Below are positions 5,330 through 23,450 of a stretch of DNA of 39,384 nt, piece after piece; positions within the stretch are counted from its first letter, which is position 1; each line of letters starts with the position of its first letter. Under the pieces are notes generated by a model that saw only the letters and a program-made list of their open reading frames with translations, searched no databases and had not been told where the DNA came from. The stretch comes from Flavihumibacter sp. CACIAM 22H1 (GTDB taxonomy: Bacteria > Bacteroidota > Bacteroidia > Chitinophagales > Chitinophagaceae): assembly GCF_001601815.1 (NCBI RefSeq), contig NZ_LUKG01000004.1, positions 41,052 to 80,435 of the forward strand, given 5' to 3'. A program made the position numbers and the translations under genes.

Positions 5330-6579
5330 CACGTGCTACACTTAGCTGCTTGCTGATCAGTTGTTTGCTGCAGGCGCAATTGCCACCGCCCCATGCTACA
5401 AAATCAGCCATGAATTTCAGTAAGGTGATCGGGTGGAAGGATGGCGAAACACCGCAGGCTCCGGAAGGGTTTACTGTTACCCGTTTCGCCCATAATTTCC
5501 AAAACCCTCGCTGGATGTACCAGCTTCCTAATGGCGATATACTTGTAGTGGAATCAAATACCCCGCATAGCTGGCTGGAAAAGTTGGGGGCGGCCGTTAT
5601 AGGTGCTAATAAATCAAACGATATGCGCAACAGCGCTAATCGTATTACACTGCTGCGCGATACAACTGCCGATGGCATACCAGACCTTCGAACCAGTTTT
5701 TTAGAAGGATTGAACCTGCCTTTTGGCTTGCTGCTAATCAAAGACAAATTATATGTAGCCAATACCGATGCGGTGCTGGTTTTTGATTATACCGATGGCC
5801 AGACCCTGATAAACTCCGTCGGAAAAAAAATCATTGACCTTCCCGCCGGTAAAGTGAACCAGCACTGGACAAGAAATTTGCTGGCCAATAGCGACCAGTC
5901 AAAAATTTATATAGCTATCGGATCTGGTACCAATGTAGCCGAGAAGGGCCTCGACCTGGAAAAAGACAAAGCCAGAATATGGGAAATTAATCCTGATGGA
6001 ACAGGGCTGAAAGTATATGCCTCCGGTTTGCGGAATCCTGTCGGAATGGGATGGGAACCAAGTACGGGTACTCTTTGGGTTACTGTAAATGAACGAGATA
6101 AACTGGGCGACGAATTGGTGCCAGACTACCTGACATCCGTTAAAGAGGGTGGCTTTTATGGCTGGCCATATAGTTATTTCGGTCAACATTATGATCCACG
6201 CGTAAAAGAAGAGGAACAGGACAGCGCCCTCGTGGCAAGCGCCCTGGTGCCTGATATTCCCCTGGGAGCACATACCGCTTCCCTGGGCCTGGTATTTTAT
6301 ACCCATACCGCTTTTCCGGAAAAATACCAGGGCGGCGCTTTTGTTGCCCAACACGGATCCTGGAACCGATCTAAACTTTCCGGGTATCGGGTAGTATTTA
6401 TACCGTTCAAAAATGGAAAAGCTGCTAAAGCTCCGGAAGATTTTCTAACAGGATTTATTGTTGATCCTGACAAGGATGAGGTAAGAGGTCGCCCCACCGG
6501 TTTACTACTTCTAAAGGATGGGTCTCTACTGCTGACCGATGATACAAGTGATACCATTTGGAGAATTGCTGCCAAATAA
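5311..6579 (+). CDS. PQQ-dependent sugar dehydrogenase / L-sorbosone dehydrogenase-like beta-propeller protein
   Basis: GLRNPVGMGWEPSTGTLWVTVNERDKLGDELVPDYLTSVKEGGFYGWPYSYFG, FVAQHGSWNRSKLSGYRV, GRPTGLLLLKDGSLLLTDD; N-terminal signal-like segment. Confidence 0.9.
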   Translation: MKGPAKTRATLSCLLISCLLQAQLPPPHATKSAMNFSKVIGWKDGETPQAPEGFTVTRFAHNFQNPRWMYQLPNGDILVVESNTPHSWLEKLGAAVIGANKSNDMRNSANRITLLRDTTADGIPDLRTSFLEGLNLPFGLLLIKDKLYVANTDAVLVFDYTDGQTLINSVGKKIIDLPAGKVNQHWTRNLLANSDQSKIYIAIGSGTNVAEKGLDLEKDKARIWEINPDGTGLKVYASGLRNPVGMGWEPSTGTLWVTVNERDKLGDELVPDYLTSVKEGGFYGWPYSYFGQHYDPRVKEEEQDSALVASALVPDIPLGAHTASLGLVFYTHTAFPEKYQGGAFVAQHGSWNRSKLSGYRVVFIPFKNGKAAKAPEDFLTGFIVDPDKDEVRGRPTGLLLLKDGSLLLTDDTSDTIWRIAAK

Positions 6580-6602
6580 CAGGCAGCCCAAATTCCGGCA
6601 AT

Positions 6603-9029
6603 ATGAGTTTATCGTTGTACAGAAAAAAAAGGTCCTTTGATAAAACGCCCGAACCGAAGGCAGGCAAAACCACTGGTTCGAAACTCATTTTTGTAATACA
6701 AAAACACCGTGCATCCCAATTGCACTATGATCTTCGTTTGGAGATGCAGGGGGTGCTCAAGAGCTGGGCAGTTCCAAAAGAACCATCTCTAAACCCGGCA
6801 GACAAACGGCTGGCTATTATGGTGGAAGACCATCCCTATGATTACAAGGATTTTGAAGGCACAATTCCCAAAGGAAATTATGGAGCAGGTAAAGTGGTTA
6901 TTTGGGACAGTGGGTTTTATAGACCTGTTGACGGAAGTACCGGAAAAGCCGCCCAGGAAAAATCGCTGCTGAAACAATTGCGGGCCGGATCTCTTAAAAT
7001 TAAGCTGGAAGGCAAAAAACTGAACGGAGAGTTTGCCCTTGTAAAAACAAGCGGTATGGGTAAGAATGCCTGGCTCCTGATAAGTAAGTCACCCCCTGAA
7101 AAATTATCTCCAATGCTGGCTACCCTGGTCAACCAGCCATTTGATGACAAGAATTGGATGTTTGAAGTAAAATGGGACGGTTATCGGGCCCTGGCAGCTA
7201 AAAGAAACCAGGTAACAGAACTACTATCACGCAACGGAAAATCTTTCGCAGAAAAATTTTACCCCGTGTTTGATGCTATTAAAAGCTGGAAACAGGACCT
7301 GGTATTGGATGGGGAAATTGTAGTAGTGGACGAAAGAGGAGTTGCCAATTTTCAACGCCTGCAAAACTGGCGAACGGAGGCTGATGGCCAGTTATATTAC
7401 TATGTTTTTGATTTACTCTGGTATAAAGGAGAAAACCTGATGGGATTACCACTGTCGGAACGCAAGAAAAGATTGAAAAGAATAATTCCGGCTGATCATC
7501 CGGTTGTTAAACTCGGGTTTTCTGTAGTTGGCAGAGGAATCGACTTTTTTTACAGTGCACAGAAAATGGGATTGGAAGGCATTATTGCTAAAAAATCAGA
7601 CAGTACGTACCAGGCAGGCGAACGAAGCAACAACTGGTTAAAAATAAAAACGGCGCGCAGGCAGGAGGTAATCATTGCAGGATTTACCAGAAACCAGGGA
7701 TCTCCGAAATTGTTCAGTTCACTTTTACTGGGTATCTATAGGAAAAATAAACTTTATTATGCCGGTAAAGTGGGTACAGGTTTTTCCGAAGCCCTGCAAA
7801 AGGAACTAATGCAACAGTTTAAACCTCTTATAAGAAAGAAAACACCTTTTTCGGAACTGCCTGCTTACAACAAAGCATCGCGATTTCGTCCTGATCCGCC
7901 ACCGGCAGATATAACCTGGCTTAAACCATCACTGGTTGCAGAAATAAGTTTTGCTGAGATCACGGAAGAGGGGGTATTTCGGCAGGCTTCTTTCAAAGGA
8001 ATACGGGAAGACAAACCCGCCAAGCAAGTAGTAAAAGAGCAGGAACTGGTAAAAGAAGAAATACTTGGAAAAGAACCTGAAAACGGTTCTGAAACGAACC
8101 TGCTCCTTAATAGTTCTGAAAAAACAGCGTCAAAAAAAATCAATCGGAAAGAACTGGTCTTCACTAATCTTGATAAACTCTTCTGGAAGGAAGAAAAAAT
8201 TACCAAACGAGATTTACTGAATTATTATTACCATATAGCACGGTTTATACTACCATATATAAAAGACCGGCCACAGTCTTTATACCGGTTTCCGGATGGC
8301 TATAAGGGTAAAAGTTTTTACCAGAAAGACGTTACCGGAAAGGTTCCGGATTGGATAGAAACCTATAGATACCAACCGGAGGGAGACAAAAAAAATAAAC
8401 ATTTCCTGGTAGCTAAAGATGCAGCCAGTTTATTGTATATGGTAAATTTTGGCTGCATAGAAATAAATCCCTGGAGCAGTACGGTTAAGAAACCAGATTA
8501 CCCCGATTGGTGCCTGATTGATTTGGATCCGGGTACCAAAACCAGTTTCAATAAAGTAATAGAAGCTGCCCGGCTTTTCCATGAGCTGCTGAATGACCTG
8601 GAACTGCCGTGCTTTCCAAAAACCTCCGGTTCAACAGGTATTCATATTTATATTCCACTTGGAAAAAAATACACCTACGAGCAATCAAAGGAATTTGCCC
8701 GTGTATTAGCAACGATCGTTCAAAAAGAAGCCAGCAGATTTACAACTATTGAACGGAGCGTGGAAAAGCGAAATGGAAAACTCTATCTCGACTTTCTGCA
8801 GAATCGTGCCCAGGCTACGCTGGCAGCTCCCTATTCTGTACGCCCAAAACCCGGCGCTACTGTTTCTATGCCGCTTTACTGGGAAGAGCTTAAGCAAGGA
8901 TTAAAGATGAAAGATTTTACTATAAAAAATGTACCCGCACTACTGGAGGAGAGAGGCGACTTGTTTCAACCAGTACTGGGAAAAGGTATTGATATGAAAG
9001 CTGCTTTGAAACGCATGCAGCAGGTATAA
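6603..9029 (+). CDS. ligD: ATP-dependent DNA ligase D (phosphoesterase-ligase-polymerase)
   Basis: PE domain (FVIQKHRASQLHYDLRLEMQGVLKSWAVPKEPS), ligase motif FEVKWDGYRAL, polymerase domain (VFTNLDKLFW..CLIDLDPGT); followed by ku. Start chosen at ATG 6603 rather than 6558, which overlaps the upstream gene. Confidence 0.96.
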   Translation: MSLSLYRKKRSFDKTPEPKAGKTTGSKLIFVIQKHRASQLHYDLRLEMQGVLKSWAVPKEPSLNPADKRLAIMVEDHPYDYKDFEGTIPKGNYGAGKVVIWDSGFYRPVDGSTGKAAQEKSLLKQLRAGSLKIKLEGKKLNGEFALVKTSGMGKNAWLLISKSPPEKLSPMLATLVNQPFDDKNWMFEVKWDGYRALAAKRNQVTELLSRNGKSFAEKFYPVFDAIKSWKQDLVLDGEIVVVDERGVANFQRLQNWRTEADGQLYYYVFDLLWYKGENLMGLPLSERKKRLKRIIPADHPVVKLGFSVVGRGIDFFYSAQKMGLEGIIAKKSDSTYQAGERSNNWLKIKTARRQEVIIAGFTRNQGSPKLFSSLLLGIYRKNKLYYAGKVGTGFSEALQKELMQQFKPLIRKKTPFSELPAYNKASRFRPDPPPADITWLKPSLVAEISFAEITEEGVFRQASFKGIREDKPAKQVVKEQELVKEEILGKEPENGSETNLLLNSSEKTASKKINRKELVFTNLDKLFWKEEKITKRDLLNYYYHIARFILPYIKDRPQSLYRFPDGYKGKSFYQKDVTGKVPDWIETYRYQPEGDKKNKHFLVAKDAASLLYMVNFGCIEINPWSSTVKKPDYPDWCLIDLDPGTKTSFNKVIEAARLFHELLNDLELPCFPKTSGSTGIHIYIPLGKKYTYEQSKEFARVLATIVQKEASRFTTIERSVEKRNGKLYLDFLQNRAQATLAAPYSVRPKPGATVSMPLYWEELKQGLKMKDFTIKNVPALLEERGDLFQPVLGKGIDMKAALKRMQQV

Positions 9030-9046: not shown

Positions 9047-9826
9047 ATGAGATCAATCTGGACAGGCAGTATTGCATTTGGACTGGTAAATATTCCGGTT
9101 AAAGTATTTTCTGCGGTTGCTGAACGGGCGCTTGATTTTGATATGCTTGATAAAAAAGACAACAGTGCTATAAAATTTAAGCGGGTAAACGAACGTACGG
9201 GTAAAGAAGTTGCCTGGGAGAATATTGTTAAGGGATTTGATTTGAATGGGAAATATATTGTGCTTACCGAGGAAGATTTTGAAGCCGCCAGCCCGGAGAA
9301 AACGAAAACCATAAACCTGGAGGCTTTTGTGAATACAACAGACGTAGATCTCATCCTGTTCGATCATGCTTATTACCTGTCACCGGCTAAGGGAGGAGAA
9401 CGGGCCTTCAGCCTTTTGGAAACAGCCCTTGCAAAAACTGGCAAGGCAGGCGTGGGTAGTTTTGTGCTGAGAAACAGGGAAAAGCCGGTTTTGCTCCGGT
9501 CTGCCAAGGGTCTGCTTATCCTTCATACACTTCGGTTTTTAACCGAAATCAGGAATCCTTCGGAATATACAATTAAAAAAATGGCGCCCAAGCGGAATGA
9601 ACTTACTATGGCAAACAGCCTTATTAAAAACATGACCGCCACATTTAATATTGCCGATTATAAAGATACCTATACCGCCAAACTTATGAAGCTAATCCGC
9701 TCGAAAGCAGCCGGAAAAAAATTGCCGGCCCCCAAAGCGGTATCCAGCAAACCGGCCAGTGACCTGATTGAACAACTCCAACAGAGTTTAGCTAAACCAG
9801 CAAAAATGAGAACAACTAAGAAATAA
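9047..9826 (+). CDS. ku: Ku protein (bacterial NHEJ)
   Basis: MRSIWTGSIAFGLVNIPVKVFSAV, YYLSPAKGGERAFSLLETAL, adjacent to ligD. Confidence 0.96.
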   Translation: MRSIWTGSIAFGLVNIPVKVFSAVAERALDFDMLDKKDNSAIKFKRVNERTGKEVAWENIVKGFDLNGKYIVLTEEDFEAASPEKTKTINLEAFVNTTDVDLILFDHAYYLSPAKGGERAFSLLETALAKTGKAGVGSFVLRNREKPVLLRSAKGLLILHTLRFLTEIRNPSEYTIKKMAPKRNELTMANSLIKNMTATFNIADYKDTYTAKLMKLIRSKAAGKKLPAPKAVSSKPASDLIEQLQQSLAKPAKMRTTKK

Positions 9827-9829
9827 TTG

Positions 9830-11017
9830 CTATTGCACGGGATAATAAAAATGCACCACATCTTCTTCTATTCCTCCGGTTTTTCGGTAAAACTGAAGCG
9901 CATAGTCATCGATGCGGTCTGCCTGAACGAATACCTCCTCCACGCCAATAGATTTGCAATACTGCTTGGTGGCCTCAACCAGTTTAGATCCAGTTCCTCT
10001 TCGTTGCAGGCTTTCTTTAACTGCTAAATCAAAGATATATACAAGGGGTTTAACCGAATAGTACTGTAAAAGGGTATAAGCTGTTAATCCGCCAATTACC
10101 CGGCCTCTTTCATCAAAGGCGGCGAATACGTAAAACCCATCTTTCTTCAACAGCTCCTGCAGGTAATCCGCCGGTGGTAATACAAAGTCTTTCATTTGGA
10201 AAACCTCTTCAAATAAGTCAATTACTTGTTTGAACGCTTCCGTTTCGGTCAGCTCTAGTTTTCGGATGATTGGGAATACCGTAGAGCTATCATGGTAGGC
10301 AAAAATTGGAATGCCAGGTTGTTTAAGATGAAATTGTTTAATTTTTTCCAACGTAACCTGCCTGGTTAAATCATCGTCTGCCCGCAGTTTTGCCAGTTCG
10401 TTTACGCCATGATCCGGGTCGGTTAATTCAACCTGCAGGTAAAATGCATCACCGGTATAAAAAAAACAATGCGATGATTGCTGCACGGCAATGCCGCAAT
10501 GCCCATGCGTATGACCAAAAAGGGGAATTAAATAAATGGCTGCTTCAATAGCTGTTTCAACTTTTCTGGCTTCCCAATCAAACCATTTATGTTCTGCTAC
10601 TGGGTAGGAAATGACTTGGTTACTATGCGCCAGTTGGTGCAGGAGATACCGAGGATTGCCTGAATAAAAATTATCAAGTTCTTCCTGTGCAATATGAATA
10701 TTGGCGGTAGGAAAATCTGCTAATCCGCCTATATGATCCGGATCCAGGTGCGATACGATTATATCCGTAACATTTGCAGGGTCTAATCCCAATTGCTGTA
10801 TTTGCCGGTAGGCAGTGCGGTTTTCATTAAAACGGAAACCGACCTGGTTAATTAATTCAATGCCCAACCTGTTTTCCGGATTAAGAGTATCGAGTAATCC
10901 TATACCGGCATCTAATAAAACAAGTTTCCCGTTTTGTTCGAGTAAGATGCAGTGACCTGGCACATCATCCATCAGTGGAGTGCTGATCTGCAGGCAGTTG
11001 AGGTGGTGAATTTTCAT
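9830..11017 (-). CDS. Two-domain fusion: N-terminal MBL-fold hydrolase and C-terminal AAC(3)-I-like GNAT acetyltransferase
   Basis: N-terminal: IIVSHLDPDHIGGLADFP and GHTHGHCGIAV..FFYTGDAFY. C-terminal 142 aa: FAAFDERGRVIGGLTAYTL...VYIFDLAVKESLQRRGTGSKLVEATK..VFVQADRIDDYALQFYRKTGGIEEDVVHF. One uninterrupted ORF; internal ATG at 11017 preferred over 11083. Confidence 0.88.
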   Translation of the reverse strand: MKIHHLNCLQISTPLMDDVPGHCILLEQNGKLVLLDAGIGLLDTLNPENRLGIELINQVGFRFNENRTAYRQIQQLGLDPANVTDIIVSHLDPDHIGGLADFPTANIHIAQEELDNFYSGNPRYLLHQLAHSNQVISYPVAEHKWFDWEARKVETAIEAAIYLIPLFGHTHGHCGIAVQQSSHCFFYTGDAFYLQVELTDPDHGVNELAKLRADDDLTRQVTLEKIKQFHLKQPGIPIFAYHDSSTVFPIIRKLELTETEAFKQVIDLFEEVFQMKDFVLPPADYLQELLKKDGFYVFAAFDERGRVIGGLTAYTLLQYYSVKPLVYIFDLAVKESLQRRGTGSKLVEATKQYCKSIGVEEVFVQADRIDDYALQFYRKTGGIEEDVVHFYYPVQ

Positions 11018-11091
11018 GAGTCTATCAGGAATGATGATTGTTTCGAAGTTATGTCTTAAAATTGCTTTTCGTGAACCGTTCAACCAATCGT

Positions 11092-12648
11092 ATGAAAATC
11101 ACCAGCATCTCCCTTCTTATTACCGTTCTGCTACTGACAGGGTCATTTACTTTGTTTGCACAGCCTGCCGCAAACGCCTATCCAGATAGTTTGGCATACT
11201 TTAACAAGCTGCTTTCCCCGCCGGAAATGAAGGAAGACCTCCGCGTGTTTTATACCATTCGGCAACAGGTTAATTCAGGCCTCTATATCTATCGAACCAA
11301 AAAGCAGATCGACAGCTTGTATGGCTGGGCCAATAAAGCGGTAAGCAAGCCCCTGCTTGTTAAAGACTTTTATAAGATCATTCTTCAATTAACCGACTTT
11401 GAGGGAAGTGTGCATAATTATACCGAACCCTCTACTGGCTTTATGAATGCGTTGAAAAAACAGCCGACATTTTTCCCGTATCCATTAACTTATATCAACG
11501 GCGCAATCATTTTTGATGGAAAGCACCCTGAAATTCCGGCCGGATCCCGGATAAGAAGCATGAATGGCAGAATCGATAAAGAGATGTTGCCGGCTTTTTA
11601 TAAATATTTTCCTGCTGATGGTTTTACGCAAACAGAAAAGCGTTCGGCAAGTGTTGAACAGCTAGCCGGGTGGCGTTATTTTATTGAGTACGGTGCTACC
11701 AAGGTATTTAAAATAGACTACCAGCCGCCAGGATCTGCCAAATGGAAAAGCATCGAGATTCCTGCTGTTAGTTTTGCCGAACAGGAAGCCAATAAGAAAA
11801 ACCGCTACAGTGCGCCGGTAGCTGATAAATTGAATTATAAATTGCAGGCGCCGTATAGTTTTGAAATGATCCGTCCGGATGCCGGCCTGCTGAATTTGCG
11901 ATGGTTTGGTTTTGCGGGCGGATCGGGAGATCCTGCATTTCAACCGTATGTGCTTTTTTTAGACAGTGTATTTAGGCTATTGGAGCAAAAGCAAATACCA
12001 AACCTGGTAATAGATATACGGAATAACCCCGGTGGAAGCGATCCCTTATTTGAACAGCCCGTAATGTATTTAACAGATAAAAGCTTTAAGGAAAACCTGG
12101 AAACCCGTATAATTTTTGATCCATCGAATGTGCCGTTTGAAAACTATTTCTGGGGTGTCTCTACTACAGAACGGATGGACAGCGCAGGATTGGCTGCAGG
12201 GAAGGCCTTTCTTAACGATTATTTTGAACCCTTTAAAGAGGGAAGGAGCCGTCAGCAGGAAAAATACAACCCGGTATATTATCCCAAATCGCCTGGTTTT
12301 AAAGGTAAGCTTTACCTCTTGATCAATGAAAACGTGGCATCGGCCGCATCGCATTTTGCATCGCTGGTAAAAGCATATGCCCGAAATGTTACCATCGTAG
12401 GGGTGGAAACGGTCGGCGGTTATTATGTGCATAACGGACATGTCTCCACTGTCTATGAATTACCCAATTCTGCCATTAAAACAAAATTTTCAGTGGTATA
12501 TGTGGTGCAGGATGCTCCGGAGCTACCTGATCAGCCAAAAGGGAGAGGTGTATTGCCACACTATGAAATATGGCCGCAGTTGGATGATTTTTTAAAGCAA
12601 CGGGATACACAGTTGGAGTTTGTACTGAAACTTATTGAAAAAAAATAG
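11092..12648 (+). CDS. S41-family (C-terminal processing-like) peptidase, exported
   Basis: Signal peptide MKITSISLLITVLLLTGSFTLFAQ; LVIDIRNNPGGSDPLF; LLINENVASAASHFASLVKAY. Confidence 0.87.
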   Translation: MKITSISLLITVLLLTGSFTLFAQPAANAYPDSLAYFNKLLSPPEMKEDLRVFYTIRQQVNSGLYIYRTKKQIDSLYGWANKAVSKPLLVKDFYKIILQLTDFEGSVHNYTEPSTGFMNALKKQPTFFPYPLTYINGAIIFDGKHPEIPAGSRIRSMNGRIDKEMLPAFYKYFPADGFTQTEKRSASVEQLAGWRYFIEYGATKVFKIDYQPPGSAKWKSIEIPAVSFAEQEANKKNRYSAPVADKLNYKLQAPYSFEMIRPDAGLLNLRWFGFAGGSGDPAFQPYVLFLDSVFRLLEQKQIPNLVIDIRNNPGGSDPLFEQPVMYLTDKSFKENLETRIIFDPSNVPFENYFWGVSTTERMDSAGLAAGKAFLNDYFEPFKEGRSRQQEKYNPVYYPKSPGFKGKLYLLINENVASAASHFASLVKAYARNVTIVGVETVGGYYVHNGHVSTVYELPNSAIKTKFSVVYVVQDAPELPDQPKGRGVLPHYEIWPQLDDFLKQRDTQLEFVLKLIEKK

Positions 12649-12705: not shown

Positions 12706-13203
12706 CTAAAACCTGGTATAGGTTTGCTGCAGCATAAAAACCAGGTGTTGATAAAAGAGCGCTATATCTCCTTTATATGATTTTCTGTAACCATTGTAAC
12801 TAAGCACGGCTTCTAACAGGTCCAGTAATTCGGTTTGTGCATAGCTATAGCTATAGTTTTTTCGGAACTGATGAATGATCTGCATCGGGTCTTGTTTTTC
12901 CCGTTCGGTTACAGGAAATTTTGAAGAGGCTGCTTCTTTGGTAAACAGTTGCCCGTAGGCTTCAATTAAGCGATCGAGGTCCAGTATAAAGTCGAGCAGG
13001 TCTTCCCTTGCACCACCATCGTCATAAGCACTTTGGTTATTGCCTAAGGCATAAATAAGCCAGCGGCTGATTTGTTTTTGAAAATCAACCGGATGGTAGA
13101 AGCTAAACAAACGCCTGATTTGTAGCCTTCTCTTTTTAACCGGCGGACAGAAAATGGGATAAGATTTGCAAAAGCGCTCTACGCCGTTATTCCTGCTCTT
13201 CAT
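12706..13203 (-). CDS. Hypothetical protein
   Basis: Intact ~165-aa ORF with no overlapping better candidate; no family recognised. Confidence 0.6.
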   Translation of the reverse strand: MKSRNNGVERFCKSYPIFCPPVKKRRLQIRRLFSFYHPVDFQKQISRWLIYALGNNQSAYDDGGAREDLLDFILDLDRLIEAYGQLFTKEAASSKFPVTEREKQDPMQIIHQFRKNYSYSYAQTELLDLLEAVLSYNGYRKSYKGDIALFYQHLVFMLQQTYTRF

Positions 13204-13252
13204 ATACACTGCTTTTTGCGGTTAGGTAACAATCGTCCGAACAAAGAACGTA

Positions 13253-20409: not shown

Positions 20410-21663
20410 ATGCTAGTTAATATGAGAAATGAGATCCTGGCCAGCCTGGATCAGCCGGATCAGCTGGAGAAATTATACCGTTCCAACAAGGCGGGTTTTA
20501 AAAAATCTTTTGCAGAATTAGAGGAGGCGCAGATGGATCGGCAATTGGCTGCCTGCTGGAAGGCCCGTTTATTCTACCAGCCGGAGGAGCGGGAGCGGTT
20601 CACTGGCAAGGAACTGGTTAGGGTATTAATACTGGTAGTACTGGCCGGTTTGCTGGCAAGGATCCCGGATATATTTTCCATAGAGCAGGAGTTTTATTTT
20701 TCCCGTAACCTGGGATTTATTTTGTTTCCGGCATTAATGCTGTTTTTTGGCTGGAGGCAGGCATTGCCGTTGCATAGGCTGGCAGGGGTGGGTATAGCTT
20801 TGCTGGTTTCCCTGGTTTTTATTAACCTGTTGCCGGGCACGGCAACTACAGATACAGTGGTGCTTTCCTGCATACACCTGTTATTATTTTTATGGTCTTT
20901 ATTGGGGTATGTATTTATCGGAGCTAAAGTGGGGGAGGCAGAAAGCCGGCTTGATTTTCTACGCTATAACGGCGATCTGGTGGTTATGACTACCCTGCTG
21001 CTGATTACGGGGGGTATTGTTACCGGGGTAACGATTGGTTTATTTTCCCTGATCGGTTTTCAGATTGAGTCCTTTTATTTTAAGAATATAGTAGTTACCG
21101 GTTTGCCAGCCGCGCCTATTCTTGCAACCTGGCTGATTCAGAACAATCCTCAACTGGTGGGGAGGGTATCTCCTGTGATAGCAAGGTTGTTTAGTCCGGT
21201 TGTTTTGCTGATGTTATTGGTTTATTTGGGAGCGATTCTTTATTCGGGAAAAGATCCTTATAACGACCGGGAATTCCTGGTACTCTTTAATGGCCTGCTG
21301 ATTGGTGTACTGGCTATCCTGTTTTTTTCCGTGGCGGAAAAATCGGGGCGCGAAAAATCGTTGGTGGAAAACTGGATTTTATTATTGCTGGCCGCCAGTA
21401 CAGTGGTAGTGAACTGCATTGCTTTATCTGCCATTCTTTTCCGGATTGCAGAATGGGGAATAACCGCCAACCGGGCTGCAGTTTTAGGTGGTAATCTGCT
21501 GATTTTACTGAATCTTGTACTTGTTACCGTGCAGTTGGTAGCAGTGGTACGGAAAAAAGCTGACTTCAGCCTTGTGCGGATGGCCATTGCAGGGTATTTA
21601 CCCGTTTATATTGCCTGGACAATTGTGGTAACTTTTCTGTTTCCGTTTTTTTTCAGGGTTTAA
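20410..21663 (+). CDS. Multi-pass membrane protein, DUF4153-like
   Basis: Soluble N-terminus followed by many hydrophobic helices; resemblance to DUF4153 proteins is by eye only. Confidence 0.65.
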   Translation: MLVNMRNEILASLDQPDQLEKLYRSNKAGFKKSFAELEEAQMDRQLAACWKARLFYQPEERERFTGKELVRVLILVVLAGLLARIPDIFSIEQEFYFSRNLGFILFPALMLFFGWRQALPLHRLAGVGIALLVSLVFINLLPGTATTDTVVLSCIHLLLFLWSLLGYVFIGAKVGEAESRLDFLRYNGDLVVMTTLLLITGGIVTGVTIGLFSLIGFQIESFYFKNIVVTGLPAAPILATWLIQNNPQLVGRVSPVIARLFSPVVLLMLLVYLGAILYSGKDPYNDREFLVLFNGLLIGVLAILFFSVAEKSGREKSLVENWILLLLAASTVVVNCIALSAILFRIAEWGITANRAAVLGGNLLILLNLVLVTVQLVAVVRKKADFSLVRMAIAGYLPVYIAWTIVVTFLFPFFFRV

Positions 21664-22277: not shown

Positions 22278-23450
22278 ATGACTGGAATGAATGTTCAGTC
22301 CAGATTGAAAAAGAGCAGGGTGGGGGCTCAGCTTATAGCAATAATAAAACGCATTATGATAGTTCTATTTTCATTGATAATCGGGCTGGTTCTACTCGGT
22401 TTAATTTATTTGCAGCAACCGATTTTTGGTAAATCGGCTTCCGGGAAACGGTTAGAGCGGATGAAAGCATCCCGACACTACCGGGATGGAAAATTCCAGA
22501 ATCTTCGATTTACTCCTTCGCTGACCGAAGGGTATTCGATGCCTGGCGTGTTGTTTGATTTTATGTTCAGGAAAGTGCCGAATAAAATTCCGGCGAAAGC
22601 GCTGCCCTCGGTTCAGACCGATGTAAAAAATCTGCCGGCAGATAGCAACCTGCTGGTATGGTTTGGGCATTCATCTTATTATTTACAGGTAGAAGGGTTG
22701 AAGATACTGGTAGACCCGGTATTTAGTGGAAACGCATCTCCCATCCCCGGCACTACCAGGGCATTTGCAGGAGCCAACGGGTATGGTGTGGATGATATGC
22801 CAGAGCTGGATTATTTATTGATAAGCCATGATCATTATGATCACCTGGATTATGCAACTGTAAAAGCGCTTCGTTCGAAAGTGAAAAAAGTAGTAACGGG
22901 ACTTGGTGTTGGTGCGCATCTTGAACACTGGGGTTATTTGCCCGAACAGTTGATGGAGATGGATTGGGAGGAGTCGATCGAGTTGGAAAAAGGAATACGG
23001 TTGCATGCGCTTCCGGCCCGCCATTTCAGCGGGCGGACCTTTTCCCGGAATACAACCCTTTGGCTGTCTTTTTTATTGGAAACCGCGGAAAAGAAAATTT
23101 TTCTGGGGGGTGATAGTGGGTATGATACACATTTTGCGGAAATAGGGCATCGCTTTGGGCCCATTGATTGGGCGATCCTCGAAAATGGCCAATATAATCT
23201 CGCCTGGCAGGCCATTCATTGTTTACCGGAGGAAGTACTAAAGGCAGCCTGCGATCTGAAGGCGAAGCAGGTAATACCGGTACACTCCTCCAAGTTTTCC
23301 CTGGCGCCGCATAGCTGGGATGAACCGCTCCGGGAGGTCAGTCGCCTCAATAAAAACTATGGCATAAACTTGCAGACTCCCCGGATTGGTGAACCCGTTT
23401 ATCTCAACCAGCAGGAACCGATGTATTCGGCGTGGTGGCTGGAATTGTAG
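22278..23450 (+). CDS. Membrane-anchored MBL-fold hydrolase (NAPE-PLD/RomA-like)
   Basis: N-terminal TM helix; WFGHSSYYLQVEGLKILVDPVFSGNASPIPG; LLISHDHYDHLDY; FLGGDSGYDTHFAEIG. Confidence 0.87.
   Translation: MTGMNVQSRLKKSRVGAQLIAIIKRIMIVLFSLIIGLVLLGLIYLQQPIFGKSASGKRLERMKASRHYRDGKFQNLRFTPSLTEGYSMPGVLFDFMFRKVPNKIPAKALPSVQTDVKNLPADSNLLVWFGHSSYYLQVEGLKILVDPVFSGNASPIPGTTRAFAGANGYGVDDMPELDYLLISHDHYDHLDYATVKALRSKVKKVVTGLGVGAHLEHWGYLPEQLMEMDWEESIELEKGIRLHALPARHFSGRTFSRNTTLWLSFLLETAEKKIFLGGDSGYDTHFAEIGHRFGPIDWAILENGQYNLAWQAIHCLPEEVLKAACDLKAKQVIPVHSSKFSLAPHSWDEPLREVSRLNKNYGINLQTPRIGEPVYLNQQEPMYSAWWLEL

Follow-up and report, generated by a model that had tools for sequence, protein, structure and literature searches.

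A single reading frame in Flavihumibacter sp. CACIAM 22H1 joins a lactonase-like MBL-fold hydrolase to an AAC(3)-I-like acetyltransferase

Organization of the locus and of the fused frame

The window, by which we mean the whole 39,384-nt stretch of Flavihumibacter sp. CACIAM 22H1 DNA analysed here, comes from an assembly of 4.87 Mb in 169 contigs. A gene of 395 codons lies on its minus strand at 9830..11017, and we confirmed the earlier observation that the frame is continuous, from an ATG at 11017 without any internal stop. This ATG is the likelier start, because the alternative TTG at 11083, which would add 22 residues, reaches into a conserved intergenic region. The gene is convergent with a plus-strand Ku protein gene (9047..9826), with 3 bp between the two stops, and a LigD gene (6558-9029) lies upstream of the latter; we take these two to be Ku and LigD from recognition of their sequences. 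On the other side, a divergent intergenic region (11018..11091) separates it from a plus-strand peptidase S41 family gene (11092..12648; PF03572, E 3e-15). The GC contents of the two halves (0.427 for the MBL half, 0.429 for the AAC half) are like those of the neighbours (0.42-0.44), so composition was uninformative as to a recent foreign origin.

Pfam profile searches matched both halves, in agreement with the two-domain reading of the earlier note: Lactamase_B (PF00753) covered residues 17-202 with an E value of 1.8e-17, and Acetyltransf_1 covered residues 265-381 with an E value of 2.3e-13. Residues 1-248 (10274..11017, minus strand) form an MBL-fold, lactonase-like hydrolase domain, and residues 249-395 (9830..10273, minus strand) form a GNAT domain of the AAC(3)-I/meta-AAC0020-like kind. 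By reading the codons of the junction (residues 242-251, HDSSTVFPII; 10265..10294, minus strand) and comparing them with stand-alone proteins, we found that an MBL-like tail, HDxxxxFP, is directly joined to the AAC start IIRKLE without a linker. A stand-alone MBL protein ends, for example, in HDINEFPTSMIDK, the AAC of a same-genus genome (G014) begins with MHLNPSIRKLE, and the fusion reads HDSSTVFPIIRKLE at the joint. Stand-alone MBL proteins stop about 5-20 residues past the conserved HD, which is the position of the junction. No in-frame ATG, GTG or TTG is found at the joint, ruling out a separate AAC made from an internal start. Structure prediction over the linker region, proposed in the earlier note, showed that both halves fold well: the AlphaFold2 model of the whole fused protein, built from an alignment of stand-alone relatives, had a mean pLDDT of 93.8 and a pTM of 0.78, with a pLDDT of 77 in the junction block (residues 241-250). 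Judged by its sequence, the fusion is a linkerless union of two essentially complete enzymes.

The N-terminal half belongs to an HxDxDH clade of MBL-fold proteins

The motifs quoted in the earlier note were all present: in the MBL half HLDPDH at 90-95, GHTHGH at 168-173 and GDA at 189-191, and in the other half the AAC(3)-I patterns. The MBL half also has YHD at 241-243. By analogy with the lactonase layout, the predicted metal ligands are H90, D92, D94, H95, H169, D190 and H242, which make up a full dinuclear-site set with Asp as the second ligand; all of them are kept, together with Y193, which we take to be at the position of the active-site Tyr in AiiA. The same note had singled out HxDxDH in place of HxHxDH. 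The motif is indeed there, and it is no peculiarity of the fused protein, since 27 of the 29 aligned relatives, from many phyla, have the Asp at the position of D92; this rules out a lesion acquired by the fusion and makes the motif a rule of the clade. Full-length homology and the motif itself place the MBL half in this HxDxDH clade, which is spread over Bacteroidota, Actinomycetota, Pseudomonadota, Planctomycetota and Cyanobacteriota. It is 51-57% identical to stand-alone Bacteroidota MBL proteins, and in the tree it falls inside the Bacteroidota group of the clade (support 98/89).

Foldseek searches with the predicted MBL half returned the AHL lactonases AiiA, AhlX and GcL as nearest structures (TM 0.65-0.76; 0.72 for AiiA). 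The MBL fold and the ligand layout are common to AiiA, AhlX, GcL and AidC (2a7m, 9khq, 6n9i, 4zo2) and the MBL half, as presumably is the Tyr after GDA, judging from the AiiA residues; however, identity is only 15-21%, and the window protein has Asp for the second His of HxHxDH. The best NCBIfam matches were likewise AHL lactonases, at no more than 51 bits against cut-offs of 325-475, and the lactonase equivalogs AidB (51/360 bits), AttM (39.8/390) and AiiA (38.2/375) were all missed by a wide margin. Thus, in its predicted fold the MBL half is closest to AHL lactonases, yet it belongs to a separate clade, and we do not file it as an AiiA-type AHL lactonase because residues 90-95 read HLDPDH and not HxHxDH. 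A resistance role, which the earlier note had entertained for both domains, is unlikely for this one: no beta-lactamase model was reached at its cut-off (class B core 18.2/100 bits, B3 16.6/240 bits), and the fold neighbours are lactonases.

In the literature we found no member of the HxDxDH clade with a proven substrate or activity. The one HXDXDH protein that we met there, Y2-AiiA of A. baumannii (A1S_2864), had no proven lactonase activity in the paper that discusses it (PMC6146095); it resembles the MBL half in that Asp replaces the second His and differs from the fusion in standing alone. An A. baumannii protein encoded near secA, which we infer to be A1S_2864, is about 35% identical over the MBL half. 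Two apparently decaying MBL copies were also seen in other genomes, one cut short with HLDNDY (L118:1384-1884, G329) and one that has lost the C-terminal HD (L115:1438-2193, G229).

The C-terminal half is AAC(3)-I-like

The best solved relative of the C-terminal half is meta-AAC0020 from a soil metagenome (5f46), with about 53% identity over the whole domain and a phmmer E value of 1e-43; AAC(3)-Ib was matched at E 1.5e-20. In Foldseek the predicted model had a TM of 0.94 to meta-AAC0020 and 0.82-0.94 to 5u08, 4yfj, 9mgu and 6bvc. The E value and the fold match bear out the earlier call of an AAC(3)-I-like domain. Y377 is invariant in the aligned AAC relatives and corresponds to Tyr in 5f46 and to Ala in 5u08. 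Fold, motifs and this Tyr are thus the same in meta-AAC0020 (5f46, 5f47, 5f48, 5f49, 5u08), which differs in being a stand-alone protein without an N-terminal MBL domain. AAC(3)-Ia and AAC(3)-Ib (1bo4, 6bvc, 9mgs, 4yfj) belong to the same GNAT subfamily, with TM 0.82-0.87 and about 35% identity.

The best NCBIfam match of this half was AAC_3_I (NF033083), at 100.9 bits and so under the cut-off of 200. This is no counter-evidence, because the crystallised meta-AAC0020 itself scores 104.5 bits and falls below the same line; the cut-off is too tight to take in every enzyme that goes by the name of aminoglycoside acetyltransferase. On sequence and predicted fold, we therefore describe the C-terminal half as AAC(3)-I-like and do not file it as AAC(3)-I.

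The architecture was found in a single assembly

We searched overlapping draws of 15 genomes from the genus, 399 from the family, 399 from the order and 396 from the phylum, roughly a thousand Bacteroidota genomes in all, and found no second MBL-AAC fusion; both halves occurred in one frame only in the window's own genome. Elsewhere, MBL relatives (up to 57% identity) had frames of about 250-290 aa and AAC relatives of about 130-210 aa, except for a degenerate one in G162, typical stand-alone sizes being about 255 aa for the MBL protein and 150 aa for the AAC. None of the other genus members that we searched had the MBL half. A scan of GTDB species returned 80 relatives, none of full length, and viral contigs gave none, both scans resting on short peptide patterns that possibly missed even the source genome. 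The plasmid collection gave no relative at 80% coverage, and no paper on an MBL-GNAT fusion was found in the literature. These scans rule out a widespread architecture, and the earlier impression that it is unusual agrees with the domain-architecture search, which gave no second case. In G162, an AAC-like match running across two stop codons (L123; G162:C1:3137873-3138448) may be a broken or overlapping copy.

Since the fusion is known so far from one assembly, a draft of many contigs, an error of assembly or sequencing has to be weighed: if the real DNA held one more base near the joint, the locus would encode two overlapping genes, an MBL protein and an AAC. A single-base insertion within ORF nt 727-752, and at any position of nt 729-752, would give an MBL protein of 266 aa and an AAC, both of near-normal length, and an out-of-frame ATG inside ...TACCATGAT... 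would be available as the AAC start. However, the stretch is short and non-repetitive, its longest run before the AAC start being CCC; the MBL tail would extend about 23 residues past HD, compared with about 5-20 in close relatives; and the flanks are syntenic with G014. Among single-base deletions tried at the joint, none gave the AAC a start. We therefore hold such an error to be improbable, and the joint looks real. A contig misjoin is very unlikely, because synteny with G014 extends on both sides of the fusion.

Comparison with a locus without the MBL domain

In the same-genus genome G014, the arrangement of LigD, Ku, a stand-alone AAC of 152 aa and the S41 peptidase matches the window in gene order and strand, and the locus has no MBL gene. 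Its AAC is 73% identical to that of the window, and the two are nearest neighbours in the tree (support 80/97). In G014, 65 bp separate the divergent AAC and peptidase starts, and the 60-odd bases 5' of the fusion ATG align with those 5' of the G014 AAC. An element in this region, TAACTTCG in the window and TAACTTTG in G014, resembles by eye the Bacteroidetes -7 element TAnnTTTG, and we take it to be a putative promoter. The MBL sequence lies exactly where the conserved upstream region would otherwise meet the first AAC codons.

Because the G014 locus has the AAC alone behind a homologous upstream region, the MBL sequence was apparently inserted in frame before the AAC. The reverse order, in which the fusion is ancestral and G014 lost the MBL part, is less parsimonious, because all other AACs found are stand-alone. 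We consider it probable that this is a lineage-specific gene fusion, in which an MBL gene was inserted before a resident AAC gene to give two complete enzymes that probably act independently. In this account, a resident AAC(3)-I-type acetyltransferase gene would have received a complete stand-alone gene for an HxDxDH lactonase-like MBL protein, inserted in frame behind its upstream region and ahead of its own first codons. The product would be a single polypeptide in which two complete enzymes fold separately. The N-terminal one would be a dinuclear-metal hydrolase, probably opening a lactone or a similar ester, and the C-terminal one an acetyl-CoA-dependent N-acetyltransferase, probably acting on the 3-amino group of 2-deoxystreptamine aminoglycosides; the latter proposal is made because meta-AAC0020, about half of whose residues are identical, is so classified. 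The immediate effect of the fusion would be co-expression of the hydrolase from the promoter of the acetyltransferase. The frame, the domains, the ligands, the synteny and the lack of a second case are observations; the order of events, the promoter use, the activities and the independence of the domains are what we infer here. Most likely, the product tethers two enzymes whose activities are independent of each other.

Adjacent MBL and GNAT genes in other genomes

The earlier note had suggested that the two domains could couple hydrolysis and acetylation of one substrate. Among 17 genomes or records carrying an MBL protein of at least 50% identity, a GNAT gene was directly adjacent and co-directional to the stand-alone MBL gene in three. 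In G291 (L141:606-1840) the MBL gene is followed after 5 bp by the GNAT gene; in G068 (L142:3670-4909) a GNAT gene of the same family as that of G291 (54% identical) precedes the MBL gene by about 22-31 bp; and in G770 (L163:2025-3323) the MBL gene is followed after about 21 bp by a GNAT gene of a different family. PF00583 was confirmed in all three neighbours, which represent two GNAT families and lie on either side of the MBL gene. Given 9-36 PF00583 matches in a genome, about 0.2 adjacent GNAT genes would be expected among the 17 loci, a figure that is our own rough estimate for a neighbour test made post hoc, after the first case had been seen. The G291 GNAT had no significant BLAST match to the AAC half, and the family shared by G291 and G068 is common on its own, occurring in 120 of 399 genomes.

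This adjacency hints, weakly and indirectly, at a partnership between hydrolase and acetyltransferase; it is a lead and not proof of a shared pathway. It speaks for a two-step enzyme, whose hydrolase and acetyltransferase would act in sequence on one substrate, for example by opening a ring and then N-acetylating the product, and which would be a tightly joined version of an MBL-GNAT gene pair that recurs. Most close MBL relatives, however, have no adjacent GNAT gene, none of the adjacent GNATs is an orthologue of the AAC, and aminoglycosides contain no lactone, so that we regard a two-step enzyme as unlikely. One-substrate coupling as put forward in the note is a conjecture: the proteins are encoded apart in every other genome found, their known substrates are unrelated, and G014 has the AAC without the MBL protein. 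A wider version, in which hydrolases of the HxDxDH clade recurrently team up with N-acetyltransferases of different families as a two-step module for a lactone- or ester-containing amine, with the fusion as its first single-protein form, seems to us equally doubtful. The GNAT partners may still hint at the substrate of the clade.

A DUF6597/AraC-type regulator gene was identified by Pfam just 5' of the MBL gene in G281 (L149:5015-5998) and G140 (L151:3761-4615), and by eye a similar-looking ORF lies 5' of the MBL gene in Myroides (L034:2104-2925).

Evolutionary rates of the two halves

In relative-rate comparisons of the AAC halves, we counted 12 versus 9 changes with the nearest outgroup, 12 versus 6, and 16 versus 5 with meta-AAC0020 as outgroup. 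There was thus no clear acceleration with the nearest outgroup, whereas the fused AAC looked faster with the more distant one. The branch of the MBL half was 0.76 long, compared with 0.18 for its nearest relative. In alignment A2, many MBL rows have their two C-terminal residues (xE) out of place. Because dS of the AAC is saturated, dN/dS was unusable. Some acceleration without signs of decay is likely, and some relaxation after the fusion is possible, because the MBL branch is long and the AAC half is faster with the distant outgroup. It is improbable that the fusion is a neutral by-product in which only one half stays functional and the other, probably the MBL half, decays. The long MBL branch, F192 in GDAFY where the nearest relatives have Y, and the absence of an MBL half from the other genus members searched fit such decay, whereas the metal ligands are all intact, there are no stops, the predicted fold is of high confidence, and decayed MBL copies elsewhere look different (HLDNDY and truncated in L118, without the C-terminal HD in L115).

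Relation to known bifunctional enzymes

As far as can be inferred, the fused protein works like two enzymes of familiar types carried on a single chain. Known bifunctional resistance enzymes, namely AAC(3)-Ib/AAC(6')-Ib', AAC(6')/APH(2'') and ANT(3'')-Ii/AAC(6')-IId, pair two aminoglycoside-modifying enzymes (PMC3675766). Like them, the fusion has a predicted aminoglycoside-modifying domain and a second enzyme in one ORF; unlike them, it combines that domain with a metal hydrolase from a lactonase-like clade, and compared with those pairs the combination of an aminoglycoside acetyltransferase with such a hydrolase would be new. Bifunctional aminoglycoside-modifying enzymes are an established theme, and the MBL-AAC fusion, seen in one assembly, is a new form of it. 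Together with G014, the locus offers a clean pair, with and without the MBL domain, for the origin of an in-frame domain fusion behind an existing putative promoter.

Elsewhere in the window, a second, different MBL-fold protein is encoded at 22278-23450 (plus strand; Lactamase_B_2, E 5.4e-38), and two ORFs, at 20410-21663 (plus strand, 417 aa) and 12706-13209 (minus strand, 167 aa), had no Pfam match at 1e-5.
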